Part shown: piece by piece, positions 6,753 to 53,051 of the stretch
Position numbering within the stretch: position 1 is the stretch's first letter
How the letters are laid out: each line of letters starts with the position of its first letter
From: Methanocaldococcus lauensis
GTDB lineage: Archaea > AGJL01 > Methanococci > Methanococcales > Methanocaldococcaceae
Assembly: GCA_902827205.1 (NCBI GenBank)
Contig: LR792634.1
Location: 868,001 to 932,000, forward strand
Direction of reading: 5' to 3'
Length of the DNA: 64,000 bases
Translations under genes and position numbers: made by a program
The notes under the pieces: generated by a model
What the model saw: the letters and a program-made list of their open reading frames with translations, nothing else
The model's database searches: none
Told to the model about the DNA's origin: nothing

Positions 6753-7457
6753 ATGGATAAAATTCAGATATTGAGAAAAATATCTCAAATTTTCTTTTTT
6801 ATTTATTTTGTTTTCTTAACAAGTTTTTGTTTGTGCTTTTTTGGAATTATTGAGAAATTTATTTTAAAAGGAACTGTTGGGCAGTTGATTGTTAAATTAA
6901 TTATTATTGTTGTTTTAACTTTATTATTGGGGAGGGTATTTTGTGACTGGATGTGTCCATTGGGATTTTTGTTTGAATTATCCTATAAATTAAGAGTAAA
7001 GATTTTTAAGATAAAAAAACTTCCTAAGGTTGATGAGAAAATTCACAATAAATTAATATATTTAAGATATGTAGTATTAATACCTTCTTTAATATTAACT
7101 TACTATTTATCGACTTATGCCTTTTGTCAAGTTTGTCCAATTGGATTTTTAACTAATCTTTATGGAACAGTTATTTCTCTTATAATTTTAATTGTCTTTT
7201 TAATTATTTCTTTCTTTATTCCAATGGCTTTTTGTAGGTATTTTTGCCCATTAGGTGCATTTTTATCGATATTTTCAATAAAGCCAATATTTCAACTAAA
7301 AACAAATGATAACTGCGTTAAATGTAAGTTATGTGAGTTCAAATGCCCGATGCAAATAAAAATAACTAAAAATCTTGACCAAAAAGAATGTGTAAGATGT
7401 TTTGAATGTAAAAGTAACTGTAAAAAAGAAGGTTTATCATTTTCTTATAAAAACTAA
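6753..7457 (+). CDS. NapH/MauN-type 4Fe-4S membrane protein
   Basis: A 234-residue polytopic protein with about four to five membrane segments. Cysteine motifs are CDWMCPLGFLFEL and CRYFCPLGAF at membrane boundaries, CQVCPIGFL between them, and two ferredoxin-like clusters at the C-terminus (CVKCKLCEFKCPMQI and CVRCFECKSNC). This is the layout of NapH/YccM-type quinol or electron-transfer proteins, which pass electrons across the membrane through 4Fe-4S clusters. The C-terminal clusters should be cytoplasmic. The gene starts directly at the stop codon of the exported Cys-rich protein. It is closely related to the next gene and is probably a tandem duplicate. Confidence 0.8.
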   Translation: MDKIQILRKISQIFFFIYFVFLTSFCLCFFGIIEKFILKGTVGQLIVKLIIIVVLTLLLGRVFCDWMCPLGFLFELSYKLRVKIFKIKKLPKVDEKIHNKLIYLRYVVLIPSLILTYYLSTYAFCQVCPIGFLTNLYGTVISLIILIVFLIISFFIPMAFCRYFCPLGAFLSIFSIKPIFQLKTNDNCVKCKLCEFKCPMQIKITKNLDQKECVRCFECKSNCKKEGLSFSYKN

Positions 7458-7540: not shown

Positions 7541-8218
7541 ATGGACAAAATTCAAATATTGAGGAAAGTATCTCAAACATTCTTTTTTATAAGAGCATTA
7601 TTAACTGGTTTTTATTTAAGTATAATTGGCTTTGTTTGGAAATTTATTTTTGGATATGGTAACTTTTCTAATTTTAGAATTATAGCCATTATATTGGCAA
7701 TTATTGGTGGAAGAATATTCTGTGGATGGATGTGTCCTTTTGGATTCTTATTTGATTTAACATATAAATTGAGAGTAAAAATTTTTAAGATAAAAAAACT
7801 CCCAACGGTTCCAGAGTATATACACAATAAACTAAAATATTTTAAGTATTTTGTTTTAATTGTAGTTATTGTCTTAGGTTATACATTTGGATTTAAAGTA
7901 TTTACTGATTTATATTTATTATCATACTCATTGTTGATTTTATTTTTGGTTTTAGGCTTTATTTATCCAAGATTCTTTTGTAGATATGTTTGTCCAGTAG
8001 GGGCATTGTTAAGTATATTTTCAAGAATTTCTATATTTAAATTAATACTAAATAAAGATAAATGTGTAGGTTGTAAATTGTGTGAGAGAAAATGTCCAAT
8101 GCAGATAAAAATAGTAGATGTAGATGTTGATAAAATAAACCAGATGGAATGTGTAAGATGCTTTGAGTGTATGAGTGCGTGTAGAAAAGAAAGCTTATCA
8201 TTTTCTTATAAAAAATAG
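7541..8218 (+). CDS. NapH/MauN-type 4Fe-4S membrane protein, paralogue of the preceding gene
   Basis: A 225-residue protein that begins with nearly the same residues as its neighbour (MDKIQILRKVSQTFFFI). It keeps the CGWMCPFGFLFDL and CRYVCPVGALL boundary motifs and the two C-terminal clusters, CVGCKLCERKCPMQI and CVRCFECMSACRKE. It lacks the central CQVCPIGF motif of the first copy, so the two may differ in cluster content. GGTGAAAAT precedes the ATG, and an 83-base gap separates the copies. The duplication and divergence suggest either a heteromeric membrane complex or two alternative modules working with the DUF2202 lipoprotein. It converges with psmA, 20 bases away. Confidence 0.8.
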   Translation: MDKIQILRKVSQTFFFIRALLTGFYLSIIGFVWKFIFGYGNFSNFRIIAIILAIIGGRIFCGWMCPFGFLFDLTYKLRVKIFKIKKLPTVPEYIHNKLKYFKYFVLIVVIVLGYTFGFKVFTDLYLLSYSLLILFLVLGFIYPRFFCRYVCPVGALLSIFSRISIFKLILNKDKCVGCKLCERKCPMQIKIVDVDVDKINQMECVRCFECMSACRKESLSFSYKK

Positions 8219-8238: not shown

Positions 8239-8997
8239 TTATTTTTTATTTTCATCTTTTTTTTCTTCTTTACTTAGTTTTTCTTTAACATTTTCGATAA
8301 TATTTTTTATTTTTTCAGTAGGCACTTTTTTAAATTGGGCATCTTTAATAGATATTATACATACATCTACATTTTCTGGTTTTATATCTTCATTAGCTTT
8401 TGTTAAAGCAGTAATAGCTAAATTTAAAGATTCATCTAAAGTTAAATCCTCCTTATATTCTTTTTCTAAGAACTCCATAACAACTGGTCTTCCACTACCG
8501 ATTGCCGTTGCCTTATACTCAATTAAAGCCCCACTTGGGTCTGTTTCAAACAATCTTGCTTCATCTTTATCAATCCCAGCGAGTAATAGTGAAACTCCAA
8601 ACGGTCTAACTCCTCCATGCTGAGTATATGCCTGCTTAATATCACAAATTTTCTTTGCTAACAATTCGATAGGAATTTCTTCACCATAAGTTAATCTATA
8701 AATTTGTGCCTCTAATCTTGCTCTGTCTATTAAAACTCTCGCATCAGCGACTAACCCTGATGTAGCTGCAGCAACATGATCATCAATTTGGAATATTTTT
8801 TCTATTGATCTAATTTTTACGAGTCTGCTTGTTATTCTCCTATCTACTGCTAACACTACTCCCTCTTTGCAAGTTATTCCTATCGCTGTAGTACCTCTCC
8901 TTACAGCCTCTCTGGCATACTCTACTTGATATAGTCTCCCTTCTGGACTGAATACTGTAATTGCTCTATCATAGGCACTGGGTGGAACCATTTGCAT
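8239..8997 (-). CDS. psmA: Proteasome subunit alpha
   Basis: A 252-residue 20S proteasome alpha subunit. The N-terminal A-type signature YDRAITVFSPEGRLYQVEYA follows the gate-forming residues MQMVPPSA. Further family motifs are GTTAIGITCKEGVVLAVD, HGGVRPFGVSLL and SGALIEYKATAIGSGR. Alpha subunits form the outer heptameric rings that gate access to the proteolytic chamber and bind the PAN ATPase. The C-terminus is a charged, lysine-rich tail (about the last 35 residues), as in related species. A TATA-like ATTAATATATAAAG (minus strand, 9044-9057) lies about 50-60 bases before the ATG. The gene is divergent from the HesB-like selenoprotein gene. Confidence 0.95.
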   Translation of the reverse strand: MQMVPPSAYDRAITVFSPEGRLYQVEYAREAVRRGTTAIGITCKEGVVLAVDRRITSRLVKIRSIEKIFQIDDHVAAATSGLVADARVLIDRARLEAQIYRLTYGEEIPIELLAKKICDIKQAYTQHGGVRPFGVSLLLAGIDKDEARLFETDPSGALIEYKATAIGSGRPVVMEFLEKEYKEDLTLDESLNLAITALTKANEDIKPENVDVCIISIKDAQFKKVPTEKIKNIIENVKEKLSKEEKKDENKK

Positions 8998-9043: not shown

Positions 9044-9165
9044 CTTTATATATTAATAATTGTTTTTATTTTTTATTCTTTTCCTTCTATTGTTCATTAT
9101 TTGTATGTTGTGTTTGCAAACTATGATTGTGTATGATAGTGTCATAACCGTAAATTATATATATG
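9044..9165. promoter_or_regulatory. Divergent promoter region between psmA and the HesB-like selenoprotein gene
   Basis: Two archaeal TATA-like boxes face away from each other. On the minus strand, 9044-9057 reads ATTAATATATAAAG and serves psmA. On the plus strand, 9152-9165 reads AAATTATATATATG, about 50 bases before the ATG at 9212, and serves the selenoprotein gene. The bases between are AT-rich without a clear operator. The assignment rests on TATA-like sequence and spacing only. Confidence 0.5.
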
Positions 9166-9211
9166 AGAAGTTAAGACAAATAATAAATGTAAATAGTGAA
9201 GGTGATAATCA

Positions 9212-9499
9212 ATGAAGAAGGTAAATATATCAGATGAAGCTAAACAGTTTATCCTACATAAATTAAAAAAAGTAAATAAGGATACTATAATTATACACTT
9301 TGATGGTTTTGGGTGAGGAGGACCTAAATTTGGGATATCCATTGGACAACCAAACGAAAAAGATAAATTAATTTATGATAATGAATTTAAAATCTATATA
9401 GACCCTATCGCTGACCAATGGTTAGATGAAGTTACTCTTACTTTAAGAAGATCAATATTTGGAAAGTATATTAAAATAAAAGGTAGCGGAGAGTGCTAA
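9212..9499 (+). CDS. HesB/IscA-like selenoprotein with in-frame UGA (Sec35)
   Basis: A reading frame of 96 codons with ATG at 9212 behind GGTGATAATCA and TAA at 9497-9499. It is interrupted only by TGA at 9314-9316 (codon 35). Reading that codon as selenocysteine gives 95 residues, with FDGFG-U-GGPKFGIS around it and KGSGEC at the end. The position of U matches the first conserved cysteine of HesB/IscA Fe-S carrier proteins; C95 matches a C-terminal cysteine. An archaeal SECIS hairpin overlaps the stop codon. A HesB-like selenoprotein is known from M. jannaschii and related methanogens. The protein may act in Fe-S or redox chemistry; its precise role is not established. A standard ORF caller would split or miss this gene. 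Confidence 0.9.
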
Positions 9500-9527
9500 C
9501 TGGGAACCCTTTATGGGACCAGTTAGC
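9495..9527 (+). promoter_or_regulatory. Archaeal SECIS element
   Basis: The hairpin starts in the last sense codon of the selenoprotein gene and runs into its 3' end. The lower stem is GCUAACUGG (9495-9503) with CCAGUUAGC (9519-9527), nine pairs, plus U9494-A9528. The internal loop is GAA (9504-9506) opposite A9518. The upper stem is CCC (9507-9509) with GGG (9515-9517), capped by UUUAU. The GAA/A loop followed by a three-pair GC stem and a short loop is the described archaeal SECIS consensus. It directs selenocysteine insertion at the UGA 180 bases upstream. It ends six bases before the stop codon of the convergent acyl-CoA synthetase gene. Confidence 0.92.
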
Positions 9528-9532
9528 AATGA

Positions 9533-11632
9533 TTATTTTATTATTCTAACATCTCCAATACATCCTCCTTCTTTATCATTAAATACAAATACTGGGTTTA
9601 AATCTAACTCTTTAATCTCCTTATGTATATCCATAAATACTCCAATCTTTATTAAAGTGTCTATAATGAAGTTAATATCTTTTTTAGATCTACCTCTAAC
9701 TCCTTCTAAAACTTTGTATGATTTTAATTCTTTTAACATTTGTATAGCAAAATCTCTCGTTATTGGTGAAATTCCAAAACTAACATCCTTTAAAACTTCA
9801 ACAAAAACCCCACCTAATCCTACCATAATTACTGAACCAAATATATCATCTCTTTTTCCACCTACAATAATCTCTATTTTATCTCTATCTATAAACTCCT
9901 CAACTAAAACTCCTTCTATAATTAAATTATCAATATTGTTCTTTTTAGCATACTCTTTGGCATTGTTTATTAATTTTTTAAAAGCCTCTTTAGGATTTTT
10001 TGGATTTATTATTACTCCCCCAGCCTCTGTCTTATGCAATATTTGAGGAGAAACAATTTTCATCACACATTTACCTAATTTTTTGCAATACTCTAATGCT
10101 TCATCTTCATTTTTAGCTAAGTATCCCTTAGGAACTGGAAAACCATAAATAGATAGCAATTTTTTTGCATTATATTCATTAGGATTTTGTAATAGTTGAT
10201 TAATAATTTCTTTATTATTTTTAGTTATCTTTAAAAATTCTTCTTTAACTTTTTCTACATATTCGTCATAATCTTCTTTAACTTTTATTAAACTGTATTT
10301 GTATAATTTATAGAGGGCTTTAACACCATTTTCTGGAGTTAGGTATGCTGGAATTCCATTCTTCCTTAAATAACTTTTAGCCCCTTTAACTGAAACTCCT
10401 CCTACAAATGAGGTAATCAATGGCTTATTTTTTAAAGATCTGTGAGTATTTCTAACTTCTACTATTGATTTAGCAACTTCTAATGGCTTAGTCATTTCCT
10501 GTGGAGTTAAAATAACTAAAAGTCCTTTAATATTTTTATCTTCAGATAGAACTTCTATAACTTTTTTGTATCTTTCTGGTGTAGCATCTCCAATTATATC
10601 TAATGGGTTTGATATATTGGCAGAAGGTGGGAGAATATCTTTAAGTTTATCTACTGTTGTATCTTCAAAATTTGGCAATTTCATATTATAATCAACACAA
10701 CTATCTGCCGCTAAGACACCAAAGCCCCCAGCGTTTGTTATTATTCCAATATCGTTAGAATCTATAACTGGCTGAGTTGAGAATAAATGAATTAGATCAA
10801 CTAACTCCTCAAATGTATATGCTCTAATAATTCCAGATTCTTTAAAAGCAGCTTCATAAACAACATCCTCTCCAGCTAATGAACCTGTATGAGATTTTGC
10901 CGCCTTTTTACCCATTTCAGTCCTTCCAGATTTTAGAGCAATTATAGGTTTCTTTTTAGACAATTCTTTAGCAACCTTTAAAAATCTCTTATCTTTTAGT
11001 CCCTCAATATATAAAACAACTAATTTTGTATCCTCATCATCTTTAAAATATTCCAATAAATCACTTTCTTGAATATCTACTTTGTTTCCAATGCTAACAA
11101 CCTTAGAAAATCCTATATTCAACAATGGAGCAATGTCTAATATGGCATTTAAAACAGCCCCACTTTGTGAAATTATTGATATATGTCCTTTTGGTGGAAA
11201 TATTTTTGCAAATGTAGCATTAAGGTTTATTTGAGTGTTCATTATACCCAAACAATTAGGACCTATAACTCTTATATTATATCTTTTTGCAATTTCTTTA
11301 ATTTTCTTCTCTAATTCATAATTTCCTACTTCTGAAAATCCTGCTGTAATTATTACAGCCCCTTTAACTCCTTTTTTTCCACACTCCTCTAATACTTTAG
11401 GAACTACAATATTTGGAACTACTATAACTGCTAAATCTATCTCATCATCAATGTCTAAAACTGACTTGTAGCATTTCATTCCAAAGATTTCATCATATTT
11501 TGGATTTATAGGATAAACTTTTCCATTAAAATCTTTTAAGTTTTTCATTATTGCATAACCAACTTTTCCTTCAATTTTTGAAGCTCCAATGACAGCAACT
11601 GATTTAGGATAAAAAATGTATTTTAAACTCAT
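9533..11632 (-). CDS. Acetate/acyl-CoA ligase (ADP-forming), fused alpha-beta subunits
   Basis: A 699-residue enzyme that interconverts acyl-CoA, ADP and Pi with the free acid, CoA and ATP. The order is a CoA-binding Rossmann domain (residues about 1-130, FYPKSVAVIGASKIEGKVGY), succinyl-CoA-ligase-like domains with GPNCLGIMN, SQSGAVL and GFGVLAAD, and a C-terminal ATP-grasp domain from about 460 (GFPVPKGYLAKNEDEALE, KTEAGGVIIN). The alpha and beta parts are one chain, as in the methanogen enzyme. SHTGSLAGED holds the histidine region expected to be phosphorylated. In methanogens the enzyme is thought to use acetyl-CoA or aryl-acyl-CoA for ATP synthesis or acid activation. It converges with the selenoprotein gene and has its own 168-base AT-rich promoter region upstream. 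Confidence 0.9.
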   Translation of the reverse strand: MSLKYIFYPKSVAVIGASKIEGKVGYAIMKNLKDFNGKVYPINPKYDEIFGMKCYKSVLDIDDEIDLAVIVVPNIVVPKVLEECGKKGVKGAVIITAGFSEVGNYELEKKIKEIAKRYNIRVIGPNCLGIMNTQINLNATFAKIFPPKGHISIISQSGAVLNAILDIAPLLNIGFSKVVSIGNKVDIQESDLLEYFKDDEDTKLVVLYIEGLKDKRFLKVAKELSKKKPIIALKSGRTEMGKKAAKSHTGSLAGEDVVYEAAFKESGIIRAYTFEELVDLIHLFSTQPVIDSNDIGIITNAGGFGVLAADSCVDYNMKLPNFEDTTVDKLKDILPPSANISNPLDIIGDATPERYKKVIEVLSEDKNIKGLLVILTPQEMTKPLEVAKSIVEVRNTHRSLKNKPLITSFVGGVSVKGAKSYLRKNGIPAYLTPENGVKALYKLYKYSLIKVKEDYDEYVEKVKEEFLKITKNNKEIINQLLQNPNEYNAKKLLSIYGFPVPKGYLAKNEDEALEYCKKLGKCVMKIVSPQILHKTEAGGVIINPKNPKEAFKKLINNAKEYAKKNNIDNLIIEGVLVEEFIDRDKIEIIVGGKRDDIFGSVIMVGLGGVFVEVLKDVSFGISPITRDFAIQMLKELKSYKVLEGVRGRSKKDINFIIDTLIKIGVFMDIHKEIKELDLNPVFVFNDKEGGCIGDVRIIK

Positions 11633-52938: not shown

Positions 52939-53051
52939 GCCGAGGTGGCTTAGCTGGTTATAGCGCCCGGCTCATACGGATATCCCAGGCATTTACGCCT
53001 GGGTCCTGGGAAACCGGGAGGTCGAGGGTTCGAATCCCTCCCTCGGCACCA
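52939..53051 (+). tRNA. tRNA-Met (CAT), elongator type, with a 36-base intron
   Basis: The gene is 113 bases long including an encoded CCA (53049-53051). The acceptor stem GCCGAGG pairs with CCTCGGC. The anticodon stem is CCCGG with CCGGG (53014-53018) and the loop reads CTCATA-intron-A, with CAT at 52973-52975. The intron, 52977-53012, begins after position 37, the usual archaeal site, and contains a hairpin CCCAGGC-ATTTAC-GCCTGGG. Exon-intron pairing can form a bulge-helix-bulge for the tRNA endonuclease. The T arm is GAGGGTTCGAATCCCTC. The weakly A-rich acceptor of initiator tRNA is absent, which supports elongator. Confidence 0.95.

Follow-up and report, generated by a model that had tools for sequence, protein, structure and literature searches.

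The closest described relatives of the gene characterized here are the HesB-like selenoproteins of methanococci. A HesB-type selenoprotein was predicted for M. jannaschii in 2005 (PMC1242214), and the family has been tabulated as TIGR01911, with the motif UxGP (PMC13188914). In M. maripaludis, the protein was identified through mutagenesis and 75Se labelling, its function was called unclear, and a disruption mutant still fixed nitrogen (PMC11097638); elsewhere the protein is listed as possibly involved in Fe-S assembly (PMC2933860).

Archaeal SECIS elements have also been dissected. Those of fruA, sps and vhuD, the canonical methanogenic examples, share a GAA/A kink-turn-like motif, GC clamps, an upper stem of 3-5 bp and a short A/U-rich loop. 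In M. maripaludis, the GAA/A motif together with about three basal pairs suffices, and the position is flexible enough that an element in the 5´ UTR works (PMC11881835). Reporters in which the SECIS directly follows the coding region likewise work unimpaired (PMC9622424).

We analysed a 64-kb stretch of the Methanocaldococcus lauensis genome (the window, meaning this whole stretch), which contains a gene that extends this already known selenoprotein family, as the preliminary description of the locus, which noted that such proteins are known in methanococci, had supposed. The gene resembles those of the same order, M. maripaludis MMJJ_08070 and the M. jannaschii prediction, in the place of the selenocysteine, the C-terminal Cys and the 3´ SECIS. 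In Methanocaldococcus the stop codon is part of the SECIS stem, whereas in several Methanococcus genomes the stem starts right after the stop; otherwise nothing essential differs. The canonical elements of fruA, sps and vhuD lie wholly in the 3´ UTR, in contrast to the window SECIS, whose basal stem extends back over the stop into the last sense codon. We found no mention of such an overlap in the open-access literature, and the novelty of this detail is thus not established. We are highly confident that the locus is a functional HesB-like selenoprotein gene in which UGA35 is read as selenocysteine by way of a 3´ SECIS overlapping the TAA, with the overlap most likely a matter of compaction.

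A HesB-like gene with one in-frame UGA

The frame at 9212-9496 holds, as previously described, a single in-frame TGA, at codon 35, and yields 95 residues when that codon is read through (Table 1). It is flanked by a divergent gene for a proteasome alpha subunit (8239-8997) and by a convergent gene for an ADP-forming acyl-CoA ligase (9533-11632), with 33 nt separating the latter from the stop. The preliminary description had held that automated callers would miss the gene. A plain ORF listing does miss it; NCBI, however, maintains TIGR01911 specifically for this family, along with RefSeq records of its members (PMC13188914).

Table 1. Features of the hesB-like locus, in window coordinates
Feature	Position	Strand	Basis
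Inverted repeat GATTGTG-N11-CATAACC, just 5´ of the TATA-like element; candidate site for a regulator	9125..9149	+	comparison, pattern search
TATA-like promoter element AATTATATATATG	9153..9165	+	position conserved across the genus
Shine-Dalgarno-like GGTGAT ahead of ATG 9212	9201..9206	+	sequence; kept in most relatives
HesB-like selenoprotein gene, 95 sense codons including predicted Sec35, then TAA	9212..9499	+	frame, TIGR01911, fold, 33 copies
UGA codon 35, predicted to be read as selenocysteine	9314..9316	+	TGA in 33/33 copies; aligns with first conserved Cys of IscA/ErpA
Cys95 codon, C-terminal Cys, within SECIS stem	9494..9496	+	Cys kept in 32/33 genomes
Archaeal SECIS element	9494..9528	+	fold, covariation, covariance model, simulated-window comparison
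TAA stop codon, within SECIS basal stem	9497..9499	+	sequence, fold and comparison with relatives

With Cys placed at position 35, the protein matched TIGR01911 (NCBIfam, HesB-like (seleno)protein) with 114.7 bits (E 2.3e-33; curated cut-off 66.35 bits). The same query barely passed the cut-off of Pfam Fe-S_biosyn (PF01521), and a whole-genome search with PF01521 did not recover the gene. An AlphaFold model built from 19 relatives reached a pLDDT of 94.5 and has the IscA fold, its closest solved structures being IscA 1r94 and SufA 2d2a (E 2e-5 to 4e-5, TM 0.74; Foldseek against 1r94 alone, E 2.2e-5, TM 0.74). In a sequence alignment, Sec35 falls on the first Cys of the GCSG motif of IscA-type proteins, and the UGA stands at the Cys site of the UxGP motif, giving U35-G-G-P, the same in 33/33 relatives. 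The protein thus shares with the A-type Fe-S carriers IscA, SufA and ErpA (PF01521) both their fold and the place of their first conserved Cys, but is only about 20% identical to them and has one terminal Cys in place of their C-terminal CxC. Across the relatives compared, the CxC motif is absent, the three conserved Cys ligands of IscA are not found, and the only conserved Cys/Sec positions are Sec35 and Cys95. Judged by its sequence, the gene product is a member of the HesB-like selenoprotein subfamily, and we infer that it may have a metal/Fe-S or redox role.

The hesB-like promoter carries the GATTGTG-N11-CATAACC pattern in each of the four genomes searched, and other sites are few in every one of them. 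A search for a regulon of this palindrome found, in the home genome, about as many sites as reversed-pattern controls gave, and we therefore name no regulator. Related RGTTGTG-N11-CACAACC palindromes (L070 and L073) occur in two other genomes, G006 and G013, some 300 bases past the gene of a small winged-helix-like protein, a proximity that may hint at a regulator link. Elsewhere in the window, tandem duplicate membrane-protein genes with Fer4_5 iron-sulfur domains occupy 6753-7457 and 7541-8218 (best segments 72-88% identical in DNA), and a tRNA gene at 52939-53048 carries a 38-nt intron-like insert in its anticodon arm; Rfam detects this gene, whereas ARAGORN in bacterial mode does not.

A SECIS element that overlaps the stop codon

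The 3´ end of the gene folds, as the preliminary description had proposed, into a hairpin with the features of an archaeal SECIS: a GAA/A internal loop between two helices, a GC clamp and a short apical loop. The basal stem is 10 bp long; the kink-turn-like internal loop sets GAA 9504-9506 against A 9518; three C-G pairs join 9507-9509 to 9515-9517; and the apical loop has 5 nt. The limits given earlier, 9495-9527, are one pair too short. The outermost pair involves the first base of the Cys95 codon, and the other two bases of that codon are paired in the basal stem together with the stop codon, whose inclusion had been noted correctly. The core of the element lies 3´ of the stop. The segment 9490-9535 has an MFE of -20.5 kcal/mol (z -5.7), equalled by 0/200 shuffles. 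No second such element occurs on either strand of the window, and simulated windows matched to it in dinucleotide content held 0.04 per strand, none with a basal stem of at least 9 bp. A covariance model had its lone window match at this element (51.3 bits, E 2e-11), a site that is itself a training sequence of the model. A search of the window and of the hesB-like region with Rfam gave no SECIS family match.

The hesB-like gene is present, as one copy each, in 33/36 Methanococcales genomes, and some of the three genomes that lack it are incomplete assemblies. Every copy has exactly one internal TGA, at the codon-35 place, and none has Cys there. A 3´-end SECIS was recognised in 30 of the 33 copies (28 by one scan, L005 because its sequence is the same as that of L004, and L021 by eye with one mismatch), starting 172-203 nt past the UGA, and 177 nt past it in the window gene. 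When 18 copies, drawn from both families, are aligned, 95.7% of cells are paired and 10/13 pairs show two-sided changes; the covariation score is 0.646, as against 0.227 for shuffled alignments, and 0/500 shuffles reach it. Slid partners gave no more than 0.204. Thus neither outcome that the preliminary description had named as counting against it was observed: frame loss at codon 35, or decay downstream, is seen in no relative, and the hairpin is widely conserved.

The overlap itself is also conserved. In 18 genomes the stem extends over one or more bases of the stop codon (a single base in L027 and L028), and it does so in 11/11 Methanocaldococcaceae genomes that have the element, mostly as GC-TAAC paired with GTTAGC. 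Relative to the stop, the stem starts at -6 to -1 in Methanocaldococcaceae and at -4 to +17 in the wider order.

The genome of the window encodes three components of the archaeal Sec-decoding trait, a tRNA-Sec with anticodon TCA (72.3 bits), SepSecS (E 1e-182) and an intact SelB of 472 aa whose ORF is uninterrupted by internal stops. The subfamily assignment made earlier is therefore supported by the family model, the fold, the conserved TGA, the covarying hairpin and this machinery, and we infer that selenocysteine is inserted into the M. lauensis protein.

Two simpler accounts of these features were weighed. Were UGA35 an ordinary stop, which without recoding it would be, the product would be a 34-residue peptide and the remainder a decaying pseudogene or a re-initiated piece, a reading in line with the GGAGG-like sequence that follows the UGA. 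We consider this very improbable: the codons past the UGA are under strong purifying selection (dN/dS 0.04-0.05 for the window gene against two relatives, taken as example pairs), an in-frame ATG, GTG or TTG after the UGA is absent in the four genes checked, the UGA is kept in every genome that has the gene with a covarying SECIS downstream, and 75Se labelling is reported for M. maripaludis (PMC11097638). The hairpin might instead act as an intrinsic terminator or serve to stabilise the 3´ end, as its location there between convergent genes would allow, yet there is no T-run directly after it, and GAA/A does not vary among the 18 aligned copies, whose stems covary. The matches elsewhere of the covariance model built from that alignment, tRNA-like false positives aside, also speak against a terminator: in five genomes, the genome of the window among them, it found, besides HesB, the SECIS elements of VhuU, VhuD, SelD and FdhA (the last on the 5´ side), labels that are our reading of the flanking frames. 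The remaining matches resemble tRNA sequence and appear to be spurious; the model is of limited sensitivity, leaving several known selenoprotein genes unmatched at E up to 1. A role confined to termination or mRNA stability is thus hardly credible.

Relatives that keep UGA35 without a recognisable SECIS

Three genomes, G006, G013 and G007 (loci L011, L013 and L014), keep UGA35 and the downstream frame with no recognisable SECIS nearby; G007 appears to be the source genome of L003, a metagenome assembly of the same sequence. The aligned 3´ end of G006 is missing 16 bases from the upper hairpin, so that only a plain stem capped by a GGAA loop remains. The G013 and G007 sequences part from the others right after the TAA, and G013 has a different gene downstream. 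The covariance model, run with filters off over 12 kb of each genome, found nothing credible, and permissive scans for NAA/A or NAA/G hairpins over 12 kb gave no convincing relocated SECIS. The best candidate near the gene, a structure of -0.3 kcal/mol that surrounds the UGA and is confined to G013 and G007, was set aside as an unconvincing SECIS because its own MFE is not unusual (z -1.4). The same scan scored 11 elements at other selenoprotein genes at -9 to -23, but four Methanococcus elements at only -2 to -4, and it misses L021 and L048, which are seen by other means; energy alone is therefore not decisive.

The 60 codons past the UGA show 7 synonymous but 0 non-synonymous changes between G013 and G007 (P ~1e-5 under neutrality). 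Neither has an in-frame ATG, GTG or TTG after the UGA, and both retain SepSecS, SelB and SECIS elements at other genes. The full protein was therefore apparently made in this lineage after loss of the SECIS. The evidence from G006 is weaker, because the loss there may be recent or an artefact of cloning or assembling a hairpin. On the protein tree two changes are needed to account for the SECIS-less state, but a single origin is conceivable. Thus, either a 3´ SECIS is dispensable in some genomes or the elements of these genomes escaped recognition. That some Methanocaldococcus lineages read through the UGA despite SECIS loss, with a non-canonical element such as the weak hairpin around the UGA or with no cis element at all, is a tentative proposal that we think probably incorrect, and an undetected element is likelier than SECIS-free recoding.

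Meaning of the overlap with the stop codon

In the model that we favor, the SECIS would recruit Sec-tRNA during decoding of UGA35, through SelB and a SECIS-binding factor, and selenocysteine would be placed where IscA-type proteins have their first cluster- or metal-binding Cys. Translation would then terminate at the TAA in the basal stem, and the overlap would reflect compaction of a very short 3´ region next to the convergent neighbor. Compaction is the most likely explanation because the kink-turn-like core excludes the stop codon, and the overlap could be tolerated because a first ribosome has already decoded the UGA by the time it arrives at the hairpin.

The overlap could alternatively be a regulatory switch, in which a terminating ribosome melts the SECIS, so that busy translation leads to less recoding by the following ribosomes (negative feedback). 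Consistent with this idea, all Methanocaldococcaceae with the element have the overlap, within a range of stem starts narrower than that of the order, and the terminal Cys codon and the stop remain paired. However, the element is close to the stop in every copy, and in many Methanococcaceae it does not overlap it; a SECIS starting a few bases later would be covered just as well by a ribosome at that codon. In G009 (L006), moreover, the C-terminal Cys has become Tyr (TGC to TAC), which breaks a basal pair. The preliminary description had reasoned that termination must open the element. The stop does lie in the stem, but the opening is a deduction that would apply as well to any stop within about 15 nt. 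Since nearby stops are equivalent in this respect, and a SECIS directly after a coding region works without impairment (PMC9622424), the overlap need not be regulatory, and we regard a switch as unlikely, if less so than an ordinary stop or a terminator. Rather than serving a special mechanism, the overlap is most likely a genus-conserved anatomical detail of a compact gene.

Among the hesB-like genes, the SECIS starts anywhere from 6 nt ahead of the stop's first base to 17 nt past it. This natural series and the SECIS-less relatives are ready-made test cases for the requirements of archaeal recoding.
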